Of a stretch of DNA of 26,750 nt, positions 8,573-23,325 are shown in pieces (the first letter of the stretch is position 1; each line of letters opens with the position of its first letter). Source of the stretch: a virus; IMG/VR virus record IMGVR_UViG_3300025466_000152, positions 1 to 26,750 of that record, one strand, 5' to 3'. A program made the position numbers and the translations under genes. A model generated the notes under the pieces. The model did no database searches and was not told where the DNA came from. It worked only from the letters and a program-made list of their open reading frames with translations.

Positions 8573-8858
8573 TTGACTGAACCTGCAAAACAGCTACAAT
8601 AACAGAGTTATTTTATAGATGAGATATATATCTTAATGCTAAAAATAACCAATGAAATTCCCACTTAAAGAATTAAGGCCAGCAACTGCCAGCCTTAAAA
8701 ACTTTTAGCTTGTTCCCCACCTAAGAAATTGGGATAAGCATTTGAAAAAAATAACCCAGAATTAACCGAGCTACTTTTTTGTACCAGTTAAATTTGCTGT
8801 AACACAAAATAACTACGCATAGAACGCTTTCAACATTCAAATACAAGATCAAAGATAT
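8573..8858 (+). promoter_or_regulatory. Promoter and structured leader of replication gene
   Basis: Promoter TTGACT (8573-8578), 16 bases, TACAAT (8595-8600). About 250 bases of leader follow before the next gene. GTTATTTT and AAAATAAC pair around an inner AGATATATATCT. TTAAGGC (8673-8679) pairs with GCCTTAA (8692-8698), and AAACTTTT follows, a weak terminator shape. An 18-codon frame (8652-8708, MKFPLKELRPATASLKNF) runs through that hairpin but has no ribosome site. The remainder (8710-8858) shows nothing definite. Attenuation or a small RNA is possible. Confidence 0.45.
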
Positions 8859-10076
8859 ATGAACTATACTAAATGTCAAACAAATATTTCACTAAATCCC
8901 CTGATCAGAGGGATTATGGATGAAAATAATCCTCTTAAGCTAGAGATTCTTAATCATCTTATCTATTTAAGCACTCGATTTAGAGTTGTTTTCATATCTC
9001 AAGGCACGTTAGCTGCCAAATATAATGTTACTCGTCAGTGGATTAATGAGCTTCTGCGCAGATGGAAGTCTTTGGGGGTTATTAAGTATCGCCAGCAGGA
9101 TTTCAATCGCTCTTGTGTTTATCTTATCAATCCTTTACTTGCTCAAGAGAAGAATCGTATCAAGTTTAAGCTTCCTGCAGCTGTGTTGTTATTGGTTGTT
9201 TCTTCCCTTTGTAGCGCTGTTTATGGTAGAGAGTTGACACTAAGTAATATAAGGAATTTATCTAACTATAAAATGGTAATTGTTCCCGCAGTTGATTATG
9301 GATTCTACGAACCCCGCGAAGCGGAATCAGTCATTTTTGTAAAAAATAGCAAGCAATCTATCCCGTACAATGCAATAACCTCAAAGGAGAGAGTTATGGA
9401 AGACACAATAATGCAGCTTGCTGCTGCTTTTAATTTAAATGCAGAGCAGGCAGAGCAATATTCTAATCAGTATAGCAAGTCCGTATTGCAGAAAACTCTG
9501 CAGAGTTTTCAAAAGCAGAAATCTACTAAGAAGATTACCAATCCACAAAGATGGCTTGCTTGGGTATTGGCTGACGAAGAACGCAAAGAGAGAGAGCAAG
9601 CCTCTCGATCCTCAAACGGGAAGATGGGGGGGCATTCAACAACTTCAAAGAACCCAGGCGGGCATAGTCCATCAGAAGAGCTGCCAAATTTGAACCACAT
9701 GGAGCAAATTGAATATTTGATGAAAGAGATATTGAAGTTCTCAAAAACGTATGACCCTAGCAAAGTATATTCGCGCGACGAAAAGATGAATGAGTACTTG
9801 CACAAGATAGCAAGCAATTCTATAGCCAGCATGCAGCGCGAAGTTGATAAGCTGCTTGCCCAGCTTGATGATCCTAATCATATCTGCAAACCAGGCTGCG
9901 TTGATCAATCCCTTTTCTTAAGAAAGCCAAAGCAGCAAGCAGACGTCGACTTTGCCCAACCATCAGCAGACAAAGACTATGAAGACCATCTGGATACAAT
10001 ATCAGCTGACAAATCTGATCCAACGGGGTATAAAGAACTGGTAAGAAAATATGACTATGGAAGGATAGCTAGATGA
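8859..10076 (+). CDS. Winged-helix replication-initiator-like protein
   Basis: Residues ~27-92 form a winged helix-turn-helix (SQGTLAAKYNVTRQWINELL, then LGVIKYRQQ and VYLINPLL), the HTH_36 style of phage and plasmid replication or partner proteins. Residues 105-123 are strongly hydrophobic (KLPAAVLLLVVSSLCSAVYG), unexpected in a DNA-binding protein. The C-terminal part (from ~190) is helical and Lys/Glu-rich with NPQRWLAWVLADEE. The ATG at 8859 has no clear ribosome site; ATG 8916 follows GAGGG. In-frame ATG 9396 follows AAGGAGAG at ideal spacing, so a 226-residue C-terminal product is likely made too. It overlaps rusA by ATGA. Position between regulators and rusA fits a replication role, but this is inference. 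Confidence 0.65.
   Translation: MNYTKCQTNISLNPLIRGIMDENNPLKLEILNHLIYLSTRFRVVFISQGTLAAKYNVTRQWINELLRRWKSLGVIKYRQQDFNRSCVYLINPLLAQEKNRIKFKLPAAVLLLVVSSLCSAVYGRELTLSNIRNLSNYKMVIVPAVDYGFYEPREAESVIFVKNSKQSIPYNAITSKERVMEDTIMQLAAAFNLNAEQAEQYSNQYSKSVLQKTLQSFQKQKSTKKITNPQRWLAWVLADEERKEREQASRSSNGKMGGHSTTSKNPGGHSPSEELPNLNHMEQIEYLMKEILKFSKTYDPSKVYSRDEKMNEYLHKIASNSIASMQREVDKLLAQLDDPNHICKPGCVDQSLFLRKPKQQADVDFAQPSADKDYEDHLDTISADKSDPTGYKELVRKYDYGRIAR
9301..9328. repeat. Stable mini-hairpin inside the replication gene
   Basis: CCGCGAAGCGG (9314-9324) contains GCGAAGC, known as an unusually stable single-strand DNA hairpin. An outer GATTC/GAATC pair encloses it. It lies between the two halves of the putative initiator, where lambdoid phages place their origin. 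No iterons were seen, so an origin is only a possibility. Confidence 0.3.
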
Positions 10077-10462
10077 GACAGAAAACTTATATCATCCCGT
10101 TAAAACCAATACCTTGGCGTAGAGCAGGAATCAGTCAAACCAAATTCTACGATCAACAAGTGAACGAGAAGATTGCCTATGGTCTCTATCTCCTCAAATG
10201 CCATGGCTCAGACCCCATCTTTTCAGTACCAGTAGAACTCGACGTAACTTTCTATATGACAACTGCCCAACAAAAGCAAAAGCAACTCAAAACCTACCAT
10301 CATGCAACGCCAGATCTAGACAATCTTGTCAAACTGTTGCTAGATGCTATAGTTGATACAAAAGCAATACTAACTGACGATAGAATAATCTCAGTTATGC
10401 ATGCAAAAAAGATATACGATTCTTGTCCCAGAACAGAATTTACTATTAGAGAGTTAGAGTGA
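10073..10462 (+). CDS. rusA: RusA Holliday junction resolvase
   Basis: 129 residues, the normal RusA size. The active site is present: Asp81, Asp83 and Lys87 in ATPDLDNLVKLLLDAI, and Asp102 in ILTDDRIISV. The spacing equals that of E. coli RusA Asp70/Asp72/Lys76/Asp91. RusA dimers cut four-way junctions, here probably to debranch replicated or ERF-recombined DNA before packaging. It starts with ATGA overlapping the replication gene and ends with GTGA overlapping the small-terminase candidate. Confidence 0.95.
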   Translation: MRQKTYIIPLKPIPWRRAGISQTKFYDQQVNEKIAYGLYLLKCHGSDPIFSVPVELDVTFYMTTAQQKQKQLKTYHHATPDLDNLVKLLLDAIVDTKAILTDDRIISVMHAKKIYDSCPRTEFTIRELE

Positions 10463-11197: not shown

Positions 11198-11532
11198 ACT
11201 ACGAACAAATAACCAAACAAATGCTACTGCGTGGCTTTGATCATCTATCATCAATAGCACAAGCATTACAACGCATACAGAAAGAGGCTAAGGATGAAGA
11301 CGAAGCACTTAAGCAAAGTGTTACGCTATCTATGCTATTTCGTGCGATCAACGATATCCTTCATCCTGGGTTTTCAGATGCACCGAAGTTATTTCCGGAA
11401 CAGGATCTAACCGAATTCCTTGATAAGCTGAAAGCAGCACATAAAGAAGCTGTAGATAAGAAGATATTCCCACCATGTAAATGTGAAGAATGCAATGCAG
11501 CTACTTCCAGAGACACAGATAAAGCTGAATAA
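11194..11532 (+). CDS. Hypothetical helical protein (112 aa)
   Basis: Start MNYEQITKQMLLRGFDHLSS is chosen because GAGGAG stands five to six bases upstream and the ATGA couples it to the preceding gene. The protein is mostly helix (LQRIQKEAKDEDEALKQ, FLDKLKAAHKEAVDKK) with a C-terminal CKCEEC cluster that could bind metal. Its last 50 bases overlap the start of the large terminase. No family recognised. Confidence 0.65.
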   Translation: MNYEQITKQMLLRGFDHLSSIAQALQRIQKEAKDEDEALKQSVTLSMLFRAINDILHPGFSDAPKLFPEQDLTEFLDKLKAAHKEAVDKKIFPPCKCEECNAATSRDTDKAE

Positions 11533-13684
11533 ATTTCAGCCTCGTCCCTACCAACGCAATCTATGCAGAGCTTTTGAGGAAGGAAAACTCAAACGATATC
11601 TGATCATATGGCCACGACGATCTGGTAAGGATATATGTGCTGTTGCGCTCTTAGTTCGTGCAGCATTGCGCAGGGTTGGTACTTATTTCTATGTGTTTCC
11701 AGAGTTCTCATCAGGCAGACGTATTCTTTGGGATGGTATCGATATAGATGGCCATCGAATCCTACATAAATATATACCAGAAGAGATTGTAGAATCACGC
11801 AATGAGCAGCAGATGCGTATTCGTCTTATTAATGGATCACAGATTGTCGTACTGGGGTCAGATAACTTTGACTCAACTATTATTGGTACTAACGCTGTAG
11901 GCATGATCTTTTCAGAATATGCATTACAAGATTCCCGCGCATGGTCTTATGCGATCCCTATTCTCAATGCTTCGAACGGCTGGGCTTTGTTTATATCTAC
12001 TCCAAGAGGTAAGAACCATCTTTGGGAGTTATATAACGTAGCTTCAACAACGCCCGGCTGGTTTTGTGAGAAACTAACCATAGATGATACACAACATGTA
12101 CCAATAGAAGAGATCCAAAAGGAAATAGAATCAGGGCAGATGAGCCAAGATCTCGCTATGCAAGAATGGTGGACATCATTTGAGTTGGGTATTGAGGGAT
12201 CCTTTTATAGTAAGTATATAGATAATCTTCGTCACAAGGGTCAGATTTCTTATGTGCCATGGGAGCCATATCATCCTGTAAACACCGCTTGGGACTTAGG
12301 TTTTAATGACCCGACTACGATAATCTTCTTTCAGCAAATTGGAGCGGTAATTCGTATCATAGATTGCTATGAGAATACAAAGAAAGGATTAGATCATTAT
12401 GCTAAAGTGGTCAAAGAAAAGCCTTATACTTATGGCAAGCATATTGCTCCTCATGATATTGCTGTACATGATCTCGGTACTGGTATATCGCGTTGGAAGA
12501 CAATGCATGATCTCGGAATCACTTTTATCCGTTACGATACAAAACAACCTAACATAGAAGATGGCATAGAATGTGTTAGACGCAACCTTCCTAAGATGTG
12601 GTTTGATGAAAAAGCTTGCGAGCCATTACTCAAAGCACTCGAGAACTATCGCCAAGAATATGATGTAAAACGTAAGGTTTACAAGAGTCAGCCATTGCAT
12701 GATTGGTCGAGCCATTGGTGTTTTACTGGAGACACAAAAGTATTGACACGTTACGCAATGCGTCAGATAATGGATATCCAAGAAGGTGATGAAGTATTAA
12801 CATTACACGGATGGAAACCATGCACGAAGGCAATGATAACACAACGCAATGCAGAACTTGTGGAAGTCAAATTCCGAGACGGTACGACAGTGAAATGTAC
12901 GCCGGATCATACATTTCTGACGACGGATCGAAAGTGGATATCTGCAAAAGACCTGAAGAAGGGTACTGTGATCCAATCGTACTTGATGCACTTACGCGAT
13001 ACTTTGAGGGACACTTGTATAGGATATGGCCTTCAGATGTATATTTCTCAAAGGGCGGATCAAGACTGCATAGAGATGTTTGGCAAAGAGCTTTTGGAGA
13101 AATCCCAAAAGGATGTCACATACATCATAAAGATAATAACCCACTTAACAACTCCTTATACAACTTGGAATGTATTCCACGAAAAGAACATTTATCGCTT
13201 CCTAGACCAAATAACAAAGGTTTTTCAGCAGCAGCTCGATCCAAAGCATCTGAATGGCATAAATCTGAAGAAGGAAGGATATGGCATAGAAGACATGCTT
13301 TGCGTAGTGCGTCGTGGACTAAATGGAAAAGAGAAAGAAGACCTTGCTCGTACTGTAAGGAGGAATTTGAGTGTCTTATTCGAAAGAATGGGCATCAGCA
13401 AAAATTCTGCCATCCGAATTGTAAGGCCTCCAGCTATAGAAAGCGTAAACTTTCTTGAAGAAAGACAAGATGTATGGGATATAGGTGTTCCGGGAATGAA
13501 ACAGTTCTCATTATCTAATGGCGCTATTGTTCATAACTGTGACGCAATGAGATATCTTTGTGTTGGATTGCCCAAAGTTACCAATACTAATGATCCCAAA
13601 GCTCTGGAACAACGATACAATGAAGCGATGGGATACCAGGGCAATATGCCAGCAATATTCAGAACAGACTTGCCGGACTATTAA
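11483..13684 (+). CDS. Terminase large subunit, intein-containing
   Basis: Precursor of 733 residues from GTG 11483 (ATG 11495 is an alternative; neither has a strong ribosome site). ATPase domain: Walker A PRRSGKD (44-50), Walker B IFSEYA (142-147, catalytic Glu145), coupling motif ISTPRGKNH (171-179). Nuclease domain: AWDLGFNDPTT with Asp271, RIIDCYE near 292-297, and the last metal-binding motif split by the intein: HDWSSHW before it and CDAMRYL after it. Removing the 273-residue intein leaves a 460-residue enzyme, a normal size. It drives ATP-dependent DNA packaging at the portal and cuts the concatemer. A terminator at 13751 closes the unit. Confidence 0.93.
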   Translation: MKNAMQLLPETQIKLNKFQPRPYQRNLCRAFEEGKLKRYLIIWPRRSGKDICAVALLVRAALRRVGTYFYVFPEFSSGRRILWDGIDIDGHRILHKYIPEEIVESRNEQQMRIRLINGSQIVVLGSDNFDSTIIGTNAVGMIFSEYALQDSRAWSYAIPILNASNGWALFISTPRGKNHLWELYNVASTTPGWFCEKLTIDDTQHVPIEEIQKEIESGQMSQDLAMQEWWTSFELGIEGSFYSKYIDNLRHKGQISYVPWEPYHPVNTAWDLGFNDPTTIIFFQQIGAVIRIIDCYENTKKGLDHYAKVVKEKPYTYGKHIAPHDIAVHDLGTGISRWKTMHDLGITFIRYDTKQPNIEDGIECVRRNLPKMWFDEKACEPLLKALENYRQEYDVKRKVYKSQPLHDWSSHWCFTGDTKVLTRYAMRQIMDIQEGDEVLTLHGWKPCTKAMITQRNAELVEVKFRDGTTVKCTPDHTFLTTDRKWISAKDLKKGTVIQSYLMHLRDTLRDTCIGYGLQMYISQRADQDCIEMFGKELLEKSQKDVTYIIKIITHLTTPYTTWNVFHEKNIYRFLDQITKVFQQQLDPKHLNGINLKKEGYGIEDMLCVVRRGLNGKEKEDLARTVRRNLSVLFERMGISKNSAIRIVRPPAIESVNFLEERQDVWDIGVPGMKQFSLSNGAIVHNCDAMRYLCVGLPKVTNTNDPKALEQRYNEAMGYQGNMPAIFRTDLPDY
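12719..13537 (+). mobile_element. Intein in terminase nuclease motif
   Basis: Precursor residues 413-685. Block A begins with the nucleophile in CFTGDTKVLTRYA. Block B is VKCTPDHTFLTTDRKWIS with the conserved TxxH. Block F/G is VWDIGVPGMKQFSLSNG, then AIVHN with the final Asn and penultimate His. The next extein residue is Cys, as required for splicing, so all class 1 splicing residues are present. The segment between blocks B and F (about 160 residues) resembles no endonuclease in the intein's own frame; instead an HNH enzyme is encoded there in a different frame. Confidence 0.93.
12811..13458 (+). CDS. HNH endonuclease nested out of frame in the intein
   Basis: The 215-codon frame lies wholly inside the intein, in another frame. 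From about residue 57 it is a complete HNH_3-type enzyme: YRIWPSDVYF, LHRDVWQRAFGEIPKGCHIH, HKDNNPLNNSLYNLECIP, and RKEHLSL, followed by the usual C-terminal finger CSYCKEEFEC...FCHPNC. Residues 1-56 are out-of-frame reading of intein block B and look meaningless. The true start is therefore unclear: ATG 12895 or GTG 12934 are in-frame choices without ribosome sites, and a -1 shift from the intein frame would also work. It stops before block F. Probable role: spreads the intein by cutting intein-free terminase genes. Confidence 0.85.
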   Translation: METMHEGNDNTTQCRTCGSQIPRRYDSEMYAGSYISDDGSKVDICKRPEEGYCDPIVLDALTRYFEGHLYRIWPSDVYFSKGGSRLHRDVWQRAFGEIPKGCHIHHKDNNPLNNSLYNLECIPRKEHLSLPRPNNKGFSAAARSKASEWHKSEEGRIWHRRHALRSASWTKWKRERRPCSYCKEEFECLIRKNGHQQKFCHPNCKASSYRKRKLS

Positions 13685-13750
13685 AAATGGTTATGATAAG
13701 AGCAACTTATTTCCTTATTACACACGTATAGGGTTGTTGGTTACAGTTTT

Positions 13751-13777
13751 CGCCTCCAGTAATGGGGGCGTTTTATT
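13751..13777 (+). terminator. Intrinsic terminator after terminase
   Basis: CGCCTCC pairs with GGGGGCG (one T-G wobble) around AGTAAT and is followed by TTTTATT. The next gene's AGGAG begins immediately after, so read-through or partial termination is likely. Confidence 0.75.
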
Positions 13778-13786
13778 AGGAGTGAA

Positions 13787-14230
13787 ATGACACAAGATAT
13801 CATTAACGCTGAAATTATTATACAGGAAAGCGTCCAAACGCTTTATGAAGCATTAATAAAAGAGTTATCGCAAGATTGGAAGAATTATACTATTAACATT
13901 GATGGTAAGGTTTACGATTTAAATTCATCAAGTGATGAAGAAACCGTATCTGAAGTAGTTAAGATGGTTCTAAAGGATGCAATGATCGCGAAAGTAGAAT
14001 CAATAGATTGTGACGAAGATTTTTATCCTCATAGTGACGCATTTAATGTTATTAATCGCATATTGTCTGGCGCGCGCAAAGAAGATCATCAGTTTGAGAG
14101 AATCAAAACAGAGATAGTGACAAATCTAGACGAGAATGGCAATCCAATTACTGCAAAAGCTTTGAATCAAGATAGCATTTATGTACAATGGCAAGATGAG
14201 AATCGTTTTAAGTTCGAGGAGAACAAATGA
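13787..14230 (+). CDS. Hypothetical acidic protein (147 aa)
   Basis: AGGAG lies five bases before the ATG. Helical N terminus (IIQESVQTLYEALIKELSQD), then acidic segments (SSSDEETVSEVV, ESIDCDEDFYPH) and a C-terminal beta-like QDSIYVQWQDENRF. No signal peptide, membrane segment or known motif. It ends in ATGA overlapping the next gene. Confidence 0.7.
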   Translation: MTQDIINAEIIIQESVQTLYEALIKELSQDWKNYTINIDGKVYDLNSSSDEETVSEVVKMVLKDAMIAKVESIDCDEDFYPHSDAFNVINRILSGARKEDHQFERIKTEIVTNLDENGNPITAKALNQDSIYVQWQDENRFKFEENK

Positions 14231-15777: not shown

Positions 15778-17850
15778 ATGCTGTTTCCAACCCTTGGGCC
15801 GCAGTACTACGATGAAAAAGACAAAGCTATTCTGCAAAGAATGGAGTCTTTTTACGCTGAAGCGATCACCATTAATCAATCGTTTTGGGGTGAAGCTGAT
15901 ACTGATAATCGATTTGAGACTGGAGACCAGACTCTCTGGACCGATCTCTATGGTAACCTTCCTGCTAATCGTCGCAGGCAATTCAATTTCAACCGAATTC
16001 GGCGTGTTATAAACATGATTGATGGCCATCAGCGTCGCAATCGTAAATCTATTATTTGTATTCCTGAGCGCAATAAAGATCAAGAGACCGCAGATCAATT
16101 CAGTAAAGCATTACTATGGTTAGATAAACAAGAAAATTATCTGCATACAGTGTCAGATGCATTTCATGGTGCTTTAGTCACCGGCCTAAACTTTCTACAA
16201 GTATGGGTTGATTATCGTTCCGATCCAGTTAATGGCTCTATTAAAGTAGATAATTGTTCTTACAATTCATTTTTAGTTGATCCTTATTTCCGTAAATCAG
16301 ATCTATCTGATTGCAATGCACTTTGGAAACGATCATTCCTTACTAAACGTGAAGCAATATCATTACTTCCAGAACATACTGAAGAAATACTCGGTTTAAC
16401 TGGACTCGATGCAGGAACTGGCCGTGATTCTAAATTTCCCTTCCTTCCAGAATCATATAATTATGGTTACAAAAATCTTCTTACCTATGATGAATTCTAT
16501 TATCGTGACTTTCGGACTCAACGTCTTCTTATAGATAGTGAGACGGGCGAGACAATGGAATGGCGTGGAAAAGATGAAGAAGCTTTAAAAGTCTTCCTGA
16601 AACAATATCCAATGGTAACTATTTTAGAACAAGAAGTTCCAACCGTGAATCTTGCTATTGTAGTTCAGGGAAAAGTAATGTATCATGGACCTAATCCAAT
16701 CGGAATAGACAAATATCCATTCATTCCAGTACTTTGTTATTACAATCCGCAAATGCCATATTTTCCATGGCGCATACAGGGCGTGGTAAGAGGATTAAGA
16801 GATGCGCAATATTTATATAATCGTCGGCGTATTATTGAGCTTGATATACTTGAGTCTCAAATCAATTCCGGCTGGGTTTATAAAGAGAATGCGCTCGTTA
16901 ATCCAAAAGATATTTTCTTGTCTGGTCAGGGCAGAGGTCTAGCGCTGAAAGATGAAGCGCAAATGACTGACGTTCAAAAGATTCCATCTCCTGGTATTGA
17001 TCCATCGATGATTCAGCTTTCTGAGCTCCTCGCTAAGGAAATTCAAGAAGTTGCGGGTGTTTCTGATGAGCTTTTAGGATTTGATAATACTGATACTCTT
17101 TCAGGATATCATGCAATGTTGAAGCAATCGGCTTCTACTACTACATTGCAAATTCTATTTGATCAACTTGATGAATCGCTCAAACTTCTTGGAAATATAT
17201 TCATCGATATTATTCAAGCTAATTGGACTCCTGGAAAGATGACTAATGTTTTAGACGGTGAAGCTCCATCACAACAATTTTATGATAAGAACTTTGGCAA
17301 ATATCATGCAGCCGTTGAAGAAGGGCTGAATACTACTACTCAACGCCAAATGCAGTTTGGTCAAATGCTTATGCTTCGTGAAGCAGGCGTTCCGATATCA
17401 CCAGCAGATCTTCTTGAAGCTTCTACATTACAGAACAAAACCAAGATTATTGAATCTACAGTCCAGCAACAACAACAAGCACAGCAAATGCAAATGCAGC
17501 AAATGCAATCGCAAATGCAAGAAGCTGCTGCTCGTACTGAGTTGGCGCATGCAAGAGCAACTGCTGATAGAGGATTAGGCCTTGAAAGGGTATCACGTGT
17601 GCAGGAAAATCAAGCTTTGGCTGTGGAGAGGAAGGCAGAAGCTGAGAAGGATCGTGAAATTGCTTTACTAAATTTTGTGAAGGCGTTAAAAGAAATGGAA
17701 GGATTGGATTTGGAACATTTAGAGAAACTCATAACTTTAAGTCATATAGTAAAGAATGAAGAGTCTCAAATGGTAGAACAGACTGCTCAAAATCAATCCC
17801 CTATGAACCAGAATCTTCAATCTCTCGGGCAAGAACAGCCCGTGCAGTAG
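15778..17850 (+). CDS. P22-like portal protein
   Basis: 690 residues, within the P22 gp1 size class, with AAGGAG before the ATG. The N terminus has ANRRRQFNFNRIRRVINMID and HQRRNRKSIICIP, and the body has DNCSYNSFLVDPYFRKSDLS, all typical of the P22-type portal family. The end (about 560-600) is Gln/Met-rich, followed by long charged helices, corresponding to the C-terminal barrel or coiled coil of P22 portal. Twelve copies form the vertex through which terminase pumps DNA and on which the connector-like proteins assemble. It opens the structural operon, closely followed by small basic proteins and the scaffold. Confidence 0.93.
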   Translation: MLFPTLGPQYYDEKDKAILQRMESFYAEAITINQSFWGEADTDNRFETGDQTLWTDLYGNLPANRRRQFNFNRIRRVINMIDGHQRRNRKSIICIPERNKDQETADQFSKALLWLDKQENYLHTVSDAFHGALVTGLNFLQVWVDYRSDPVNGSIKVDNCSYNSFLVDPYFRKSDLSDCNALWKRSFLTKREAISLLPEHTEEILGLTGLDAGTGRDSKFPFLPESYNYGYKNLLTYDEFYYRDFRTQRLLIDSETGETMEWRGKDEEALKVFLKQYPMVTILEQEVPTVNLAIVVQGKVMYHGPNPIGIDKYPFIPVLCYYNPQMPYFPWRIQGVVRGLRDAQYLYNRRRIIELDILESQINSGWVYKENALVNPKDIFLSGQGRGLALKDEAQMTDVQKIPSPGIDPSMIQLSELLAKEIQEVAGVSDELLGFDNTDTLSGYHAMLKQSASTTTLQILFDQLDESLKLLGNIFIDIIQANWTPGKMTNVLDGEAPSQQFYDKNFGKYHAAVEEGLNTTTQRQMQFGQMLMLREAGVPISPADLLEASTLQNKTKIIESTVQQQQQAQQMQMQQMQSQMQEAAARTELAHARATADRGLGLERVSRVQENQALAVERKAEAEKDREIALLNFVKALKEMEGLDLEHLEKLITLSHIVKNEESQMVEQTAQNQSPMNQNLQSLGQEQPVQ

Positions 17851-21921: not shown

Positions 21922-22449
21922 TTAAGAATTACGCATAGGATGAAGATGAAATCGAGAATTAAGCTTACGAATCTCCTCAAAACAGAGCTGGCGAGCATCC
22001 AGACTTTCTTTGGAAAGTTTGTTGGATCCCAGTTTTGCTGTGTAGGTCTTTCTGAATCTTATCATGATTTCGCACTGTCTTCTTTTGATAGTGAGATACG
22101 GAAGAATTTGTTCGCACAGATCAAGGAGTCTATCGCCAGTGGCGATCCAACTGAAAACTTCTCGGGTGAAAGCTTTAGTAGAAGTACTGCGAGTAGCAGC
22201 AGAATTAGTTCCACTGAAGGTTTGATTCAGCCAATCGATGAGGACATGATCCGTATTATCGATCTTAAGAAGTCCGCGGTAATGCTCAGTTACATATCCA
22301 TCTCCAGATTTTTTGGGAATGAGACCAATGTAAAAGCATCCTTCTCCATCCACAATACCAGCCATGTAAGCCAGATCAACTGGTTTGTAAACGGTTGGAA
22401 CGTAATCCTCAGATCGTCGATAGTATTTTCGTCGTTGTTTAATTTCCAT
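21922..22449 (-). CDS. LAGLIDADG homing endonuclease, antisense in intron 1
   Basis: 175 residues with one LAGLIDADG motif, LAYMAGIVDGEGCFYIG (residues 26-42, catalytic acid at Glu36), so it should act as a homodimer. Later segments KIDNTDHVLIDWLNQTF, VFSWIATGDRLLDLCEQILP and YLTIKRRQCEIMIRF are usual for this family. AGAGG lies six bases before the ATG. It is transcribed against the capsid gene from its own promoter, so it is not made from the intron RNA. It should cut intronless capsid genes. Confidence 0.92.
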   Translation of the reverse strand: MEIKQRRKYYRRSEDYVPTVYKPVDLAYMAGIVDGEGCFYIGLIPKKSGDGYVTEHYRGLLKIDNTDHVLIDWLNQTFSGTNSAATRSTSTKAFTREVFSWIATGDRLLDLCEQILPYLTIKRRQCEIMIRFRKTYTAKLGSNKLSKESLDARQLCFEEIRKLNSRFHLHPMRNS

Positions 22450-22485
22450 AGAATCCTCTGTTATTTGAAGCAGATATACTATTTA

Positions 22486-22514
22486 ATTATACACGAAGCA
22501 AAACTATTTGTCCA
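22486..22514 (-). promoter_or_regulatory. Promoter of the antisense endonuclease
   Basis: On the minus strand TGGACA (22514-22509), 17 bases, TATAAT (22491-22486), preceded by TGTG as an extended -10. The -35 lies within the conserved ribozyme core sequence CAGGCTGAAC region. The transcript would start about 30 bases before the endonuclease ATG. Confidence 0.75.
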
Positions 22515-22655
22515 GGCTGAACGACTTAGCGGGCGGGGCTCATCAACCTTACGATGGGCATGCGAAAGTCTGAACTCATATCGAAAGTATGAGAGAGAGA
22601 TCCGAAGAGGTTTCTCCGCCAAATGTAAAAGTTTGGTCATAAAAGTAACAGAGTG

Positions 22656-23124
22656 TTTAAACGAATGTGCAGCACGTCTTGGCGTGTCACTTCGTCAAAC
22701 TGAAGATCAGCTTACTCGTGATATGCTTGCAGGAACTGCAGCATTCATTAACTGTACTGCTGGTGTGAATGGTGATAACCCAACTGAACTTACTCGTTCA
22801 GATGTTGATGATGTGGTTCGTGCGTTACTTGGTAACAATGCGTACACCATTCTTGATAACATCGAAGGTGATGATAAGTTCGGTACTGCTCCGGTTCGTG
22901 ATGCATACTTTGCGTTATGTCATACTGACTTAACTAAAGATATGGACAACGTTACTGGGTTCATTCAAAAGAACCAATATCCGTCACCAATGAATGCGTT
23001 GCGTTCAGAGTGGGGTGCGATTGGAAACTTACGTTTCTTGATTTCATCTATTGGTTCACAAAGTTTGAATGCATCTTCTCTTGGCGCGAATGTGTACAAC
23101 ATATTCTGCGTTGGTATGGAGGCT
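22656..23124 (+). CDS. Major capsid protein, exon 2
   Basis: Continues LNECAARLGVSLRQTEDQLT, FINCTAGVNGDNPTELTRSD, LLGNNAYTILDNIEGDDKFG, APVRDAYFALCHTDLTKDMD and QYPSPMNALRSEWGAIGNLR, ending NVYNIFCVGMEA. This is the main body of the capsid protein and is strongly typical of the N4-gp56-like family. Both ends sit on group I splice sites. A long frame starting in the intron at 21940 runs into it by chance and would be mis-called as a separate protein. Confidence 0.92.
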
Positions 23125-23325
23125 AAAGTGTTAGGTCTCCTTAAATTTCTTCTGATTGACTTGGAAGTCCTACGGGATCACAAGGGGCAAGCGAAAGCAG
23201 CCTGAACGACTAAGTGAAGAAACGTCGAAAGACGAAGCGATAGTCTGGACTCTATGGTAACATAGAGAGGAATCTCCGAAGAGGGAATCCCGCCTGGAAA
23301 CAGGTCATAAAAGTAACAGAATTCG
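23125..23325 (+). ncRNA. Group I intron 2 in capsid gene (endonuclease-free)
   Basis: 201 bases. P1: exon GGAGGCT pairs with GGTCTCC at 23134-23140, with a U-G wobble at the splice site. Core: GCCTGAACGACTAAG, P8 GTCGAAAGAC, R side GATAGTCTG (P7 GACT/AGTC), P9 CTCTATG-GTAA-CATAGAG. It ends GTCATAAAAGTAACAGAATTCG with terminal G. Splicing joins GTGMEA to YACVEQDGYS in frame. It shares its core and 3' end with intron 1 but has no protein gene. Confidence 0.88.

Follow-up and report, generated by a model that had tools for sequence, protein, structure and literature searches.

The large terminase subunit gene (terL) in a 26,750 nt stretch of viral DNA (positions 1 to 26,750 of IMG/VR record IMGVR_UViG_3300025466_000152, here called the window) is interrupted by an intein, and an HNH endonuclease is encoded over the middle of that intein in another reading frame. 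This arrangement raises the questions of whether one piece of DNA is constrained to encode two proteins, how the nuclease would be produced and how widely the layout occurs. The original prediction, made from the sequence alone, was that the DNA encodes both a splicing-compatible linker and an active nuclease, and that the latter would need an internal start or a frameshift.

The intein in terL

The components read in the terL frame are:

11483–13684, + strand: terL, large terminase subunit gene with intein, an open frame with N-extein 11483–12718 and C-extein 13538–13684
12719–12979, + strand: N-terminal Hint half (block A from C1; block B TPDH), defined by PF14890, TIGR01445 and AlphaFold2 (pLDDT ~95–98)
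12980–13435, + strand: intein-frame linker, predicted to be disordered (pLDDT mostly ~30–50), overlapping the HNH core, with no stops and no amino acid constraint
13436–13537, + strand: C-terminal Hint half (block F/G, VHN), defined by the AlphaFold2 model and motifs and followed by the +1 Cys (13538–13540)

The N-extein matches the terminase large subunit (PHROG, E=2.8e-25), and matches to Pfam Intein_splicing (PF14890, E=6e-14) and TIGR01445 intein_Nterm (E=1e-8) both lie in the TerL frame. The intein runs from C1 at 12719 to an Asn ending at 13537, block B (TVKCTPDHTFL) is at 12887–12919 in the intein frame, and the 3′ end encodes FSLSNGAIVHN. The splicing blocks (C1, TPDH, VHN and the +1 Cys) are therefore complete in the host frame, as had been claimed, and in an alignment of 44 intein sequences C1, T61, H64 and N273 are invariant and H272 is nearly so. 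In the AlphaFold2 model both Hint halves have pLDDT ~95–98 and residues 93–210 are mostly near 30; a Foldseek search with this model matched the DnaB, gp41-1 and NrdJ-1 mini-inteins. When the middle of the intein was searched against Pfam in the intein frame there was no meaningful match, in line with the earlier view that this frame holds no recognisable nuclease. The Hint fold, the conserved splicing motifs, the placement in the host frame and the existence of empty alleles (see below) together identify the element as an intein.

An intein identical letter for letter is present in two further IMG/VR assemblies (L001 and L002), one of which, L001, differs from the window only at position 8845, outside the intein. 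Hence, assembly error is unlikely to be the source of the layout, and there was no sign of the compensating indels that had been named as a possible refutation. The genes around terL include one for a RusA-like Holliday junction resolvase (10073–10462) upstream of the terminase genes, and a portal protein and a major head protein (15778–17850 and 21940–23205), an ordinary tailed-phage packaging and head module.

The HNH nuclease gene in the −1 frame

The −1 frame relative to the intein contains a match to HNH_3 (PF13392, E=5e-15) and the following features:

12820–13458, + strand: HNH endonuclease gene (alternative start ATG 12811), from the HNH_3 match, with the start taken from relatives with a stop directly before the ATG
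12850–12864, + strand: CxxCG knuckle in the HNH frame, overlapping the Hint half, with C11 and C14 invariant (43 sequences) and fixed via synonymous choice in the intein frame
13063–13191, + strand: HNH_3 catalytic core in the HNH frame, the Pfam match covering residues 85–127 of the ORF from 12811, with H102, H103, N111 and N115 invariant
13345–13422, + strand: putative zinc finger (CxxC...CxxxC) at the HNH C-terminus, with invariant Cys residues

Residue invariance was assessed in an alignment of 43 HNH sequences. Stops at 12787 and 12790 are followed by an open frame that begins at 12793 and is closed by the stop at 13456–13458. Thus, the original prediction correctly placed an HNH protein in a second frame, but the extent it gave (12979–13458) begins too far downstream. 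An AlphaFold2 model of the HNH protein has pLDDT 83 and found no significant fold match in the PDB, so that its assignment as a nuclease relies on the Pfam HNH_3 match and the conserved residues. The only PDB sequence match (6e10, E=0.005) looks spurious and was set aside.

Distribution of the nested layout

Loci were gathered from IMG/VR and GenBank phages by alignment searches in both the HNH frame and the intein frame, and 162 were processed. As had been proposed, this extended the search for the intein to related terminases, and in 157 loci a Hint domain precedes an HNH that lies in the same −1 frame throughout, while the Hint frame remains open beyond the HNH end. These represent 109 distinct elements at 95 % identity, which share kinship, so that counts over them are not counts of independent events. 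Wherever the junction could be read, the insertion is in terL beside a conserved D-A-x-R-Y motif. The HNH is in the −1 frame throughout, and none of the 109 terL elements has it in the frame of the intein itself. The five exceptions are a locus cut by the contig end, one with the HNH only (free-standing, L011), one with Hint only (at a contig end), and L157 and L160, which have a conventional in-frame HNH within an intein that interrupts a different host gene, probably that for ribonucleotide reductase. In-frame homologues, also named beforehand as a possible refutation, are therefore limited to these two and none is in terL.

The nested layout occurs in the named phages Tetrasphaera phage TJE1, Acinetobacter phage Highwayman and Rhodobacteraceae phage LS06-2018-MD07, and bacterial genome records with copies are those of a gammaproteobacterial MAG, a Selenomonadaceae MAG and Frankia. 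A genome scan returned distant copies only, and the intein sequence, used as a DNA query, matched none of the phage records searched. The terL of L005 (3002–5173) apparently has two inteins, one 5′ of the CSFDAGVEGSYYAKYID segment and the one with the nested HNH at the DALRY site. In a phage from the group to which the window belongs, L169 (4225–5391), the identical terL site is occupied by a different intein, which likewise contains an out-of-frame nested HNH.

Selection in the two frames

Synonymous and nonsynonymous rates in both frames, a calculation that had been suggested for this locus, were obtained from 33 disjoint pairs, which lessen but do not remove the relatedness of the elements. 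With the first letter denoting the HNH frame and the second the intein frame, the rates over the Hint overlap (intein bases 128–275) are NN.026, NS.094, SN.127 and SS.571, and those over the HNH core are NN.022, NS.017, SN.355 and SS.172; the SS class is small, with 12 differences in the Hint overlap and 21 in the core. In the Hint overlap (~150 bases) purifying selection acts on both proteins. Over the core the HNH protein alone is constrained at the amino acid level, no amino acid constraint on the intein-frame linker was found in the 33 pairs, and the intein frame is merely kept open. The disordered linker in the AlphaFold2 model agrees with these rates.

To obtain the expected number of stops, the synonymous codons of each HNH core were shuffled within that sequence and the stops arising in the other frames were counted. 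Over the 109 distinct elements there are no intein-frame stops over the HNH core where 188 are expected, while the third frame of the same elements contains 1627 against an expected 1679. The result is the same (0 against 126) for the 72 elements that were recruited by similarity in the HNH and not in the intein frame. In the window itself, the intein frame stays free of stops in 3 % of synonymous shuffles, which bears out the earlier statement that so long an open frame is unlikely to arise by chance. No such deficit is seen in eight free-standing HNH relatives, where the equivalent frame contains 43 stops (42.7 expected), or in three 'fractured' copies, with 27 (22.2 expected). Hence, stop avoidance is specific to the nested state. 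The idea that the DNA is constrained for both products thus stands in respect of stop avoidance and the dually constrained ~150 bases, but not of the linker over the core, which has to be open and whose sequence is otherwise unconstrained.

Stop density also accounts for the constancy of the frame. Per 150 codons, 1.6 stops are expected in the frame used and 13.9 in the other relative frame. About nine times more stops would have to be removed from the alternative, which suffices to account for the invariable −1 offset.

Expression of the nuclease

A scan of synonymous diversity along the N-intein in 79 members of the window's clade showed that codons 0–7 and most of 19–42 are free, and that 8–17, 43–47 and 50–63 are frozen. 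The second frozen patch fixes the HNH-frame CxxCG knuckle and the third the HNH-frame sequence around MYAGS/MHAGS. The first corresponds to TTGAC[A/G]-N17-GATAAT, present in the window as:

12743–12771, + strand: putative sigma70-like promoter in block A (TTGACA-17-GATAAT), with 11/12 consensus matches and synonymous constraint

Within the window's clade, to which the support applies, this motif is probably a promoter for the nuclease gene. Its spacing is optimal, its hexamers are near consensus, it is the best sigma70-like site in 65/82 clade loci, and its mean score in clade loci is 9.8 compared with 7.8 under synonymous resampling. However, conservation of the 17-base spacer equals that of the hexamers, so that another DNA-level element is possible, and no such motif was found in most other clades. 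In a less probable but still credible alternative, the nested intein is as described, the HNH protein is translated from the terL message, and the block A motif serves instead as an operator or as a DNA site for that protein. The spacing, the hexamers and the ranking of the site speak against this alternative. We lean slightly towards a broader proposal, namely that phage inteins overprinted with a homing endonuclease that has its own expression form a widespread class, and that in the window's clade the first ~200 intein bases may hold three overlapping messages (the Hint splicing motifs, a sigma70-type promoter and the nuclease N-terminus), making the timing of the nuclease separable from late terminase expression.

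For translation, relatives are informative. The ATG at 12820 is the start shared in the window's subclade, where L093, L095, L096 and L101 have an HNH-frame stop immediately ahead of the equivalent ATG, and in other clades the HNH ATG likewise comes just after an HNH-frame stop. A strong Shine-Dalgarno sequence is found at the HNH start of L010 (GGCGGAGGG), L087 (TAAGGAGGT) and L156 (AAAGGAGGA); that at the start in the window is weak. Conservation of the HNH-frame CxxCG and MYAGS/MHAGS sequences places the beginning of translation upstream of 12850, and conserved HNH-frame sequence such as the knuckle indicates that the HNH start is 12811 or, more likely, 12820. The ATG at 12895 and the GTG at 12934, whose equivalents are strongly conserved, were considered as starts and rejected as conserved HNH-frame sequence, including CxxCG, lies upstream of them.

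The second route allowed by the original prediction, programmed −1 ribosomal frameshifting from terL to give a TerL-IntN-HNH fusion protein, would fit an offset that is always in the direction of the common programmed shift. But canonical slippery heptamers occur in just 3/109 loci, many relatives have the HNH-frame stop just before the conserved ATG, some with a strong Shine-Dalgarno, and stop density accounts for the constant frame. We therefore regard frameshifting as very improbable, and the comparison of relatives gives good support to the other route, internal initiation.

Empty sites, mobility and related states

The terL of L171 is 97 % identical in DNA to that in the window and has no intein, the junction being HDWSSHW-ADAMRYL in L171 and HDWSSHW-intein-CDAMRYL in the window. 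Identity is near complete upstream, but only 20/30 bases match immediately before the site and ~26/30 after it. This concentration of divergence at the junction is co-conversion-like, as would be expected from co-conversion of the flanks. Together with the presence and absence of the intein in near-identical alleles, it is indirect evidence that the HNH protein may cut the empty terL site. Intein-less terL alleles are found in L163–L168, L170 and L171, and most other close terL relatives are empty too. In L168 and L173, the intein-less terL has Cys rather than Ala at the +1 position, possibly a scar of intein loss.

Homologous HNH genes are free-standing beside an intein-less terL in Pseudomonas phage PAE1, Sphaerotilus phage SN1, FBPa53, PhiSTP1, BP10, EauM-23 and Poludnitsa, and L185 has a mini-intein without an HNH. 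In Lactobacillus phage CL2, L190 and L191 the element is in pieces (IntN-stop, HNH, IntC). In L186 (1500–2900), as in L190 and L191, terL is divided into IntN-stop, an HNH gene homologous to the nested one, and IntC with the C-extein in another frame, a pattern like that of split-intein 'fractured genes'. A short HNH-like stretch in Brochothrix phage BL3 (L192, 2220–2399) extends from the end of terL as annotated (gp2) into the beginning of gp3, and is possibly a decayed nested or fractured element. In an HNH tree built by a quick method, a minimum of six changes is required among the nested, free and fractured states, three of them, for 'nested', being forced by well-supported branches. The states have therefore probably interconverted.

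A probable mobile intein with a nested nuclease gene

The best explanation, with a probability of roughly 0.88, is a mobile phage intein with an independently expressed homing endonuclease gene nested in the −1 frame. The two frames, conservation, stop avoidance, dual constraint and presence or absence between near-identical alleles were computed directly; splicing, cleavage, promoter use and homing are inferred. Translation of terL would give a precursor in which the intein consists of two Hint halves and a floppy linker of ~150 residues, and self-excision of the intein would leave an active terminase. From the internal ATG at 12820, the −1 frame of this DNA would give a separate HNH nuclease, whose gene in the window's clade is probably transcribed from the promoter buried in block A. 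A cut made by this nuclease in intein-less terL, at the conserved D-A-x-R-Y motif, would be repaired by copying the element in. Selection preserves a functional HNH core and does no more than keep stops out of the intein frame there, whereas in the Hint overlap it acts on both proteins.

Homing endonucleases often decay once fixed, and the HNH could be a decaying remnant that was once in frame and was displaced by two indels, or the product of an assembly error. We give this even less credence than frameshifting as independent assemblies are identical, the HNH core is under strong purifying selection (SN.355 compared with NN.022), the catalytic and Cys residues are invariant, and the same frame is used in 109 elements with none in frame at terL. 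Least likely of all is removal at the RNA level, with the HNH carried by a self-splicing intron, as phage HNH genes frequently are by group I introns, and the open frame incidental: there is no Rfam match (E up to 1) across 11400–13800, the protein-splicing motifs are complete and conserved, and the intein frame is kept open.

Relationship to described elements

The nearest described case is the ShiLan domain, a mobile phage insertion in DNA methylases of mycobacteriophages that includes an out-of-frame HNH, lacks splicing domains and has HNH expression that is unexplained (Arsenault, Gosselin and Gogarten 2025, PMC11855218). The terL element is likewise a phage insertion, probably mobile, that leaves the host frame open and conceals an HNH in another frame, but it has splicing domains, a candidate promoter and start, and is found in many phages. 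Inteins with an in-frame endonuclease (LAGLIDADG or HNH) also have Hint halves flanking the endonuclease and insert at a conserved active-site motif, whereas the terL nuclease is in the other frame and never in the precursor, and the intein middle is a linker. Fractured genes and split inteins with an endonuclease between the halves were reportedly described by Dassa in 2009. They resemble the terL element in having a separate endonuclease gene between IntN and IntC, where homologous HNH genes lie in CL2, L190 and L191, but in the window nothing breaks the host frame, and splicing would take place in cis. Finally, the free-standing genes of PAE1 and SN1 (cf. collaborative homing) encode a homologous HNH adjoining the same gene, but without intein, overlap or second-frame stop avoidance. 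A literature search, with subscription journals and bioRxiv largely outside its coverage, found no out-of-frame endonuclease within a genuine intein; an earlier description is possible.

The layout means that the two halves of a mobile intein can be uncoupled, as the nuclease can do without fusion to the splicing domain and must only leave the host frame open. This gives a simple route for a free-standing nuclease beside terL to become intein-borne and explains the use of one frame only. Inteins annotated as lacking an endonuclease, or as having an unexplained linker, may hide one. If the first part of the intein does hold three overlapping messages, the timing of the nuclease can be uncoupled from late terminase expression. 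More than 100 replicates, together with the free-standing controls, make these elements well suited as a natural system in which to measure what dual coding costs.
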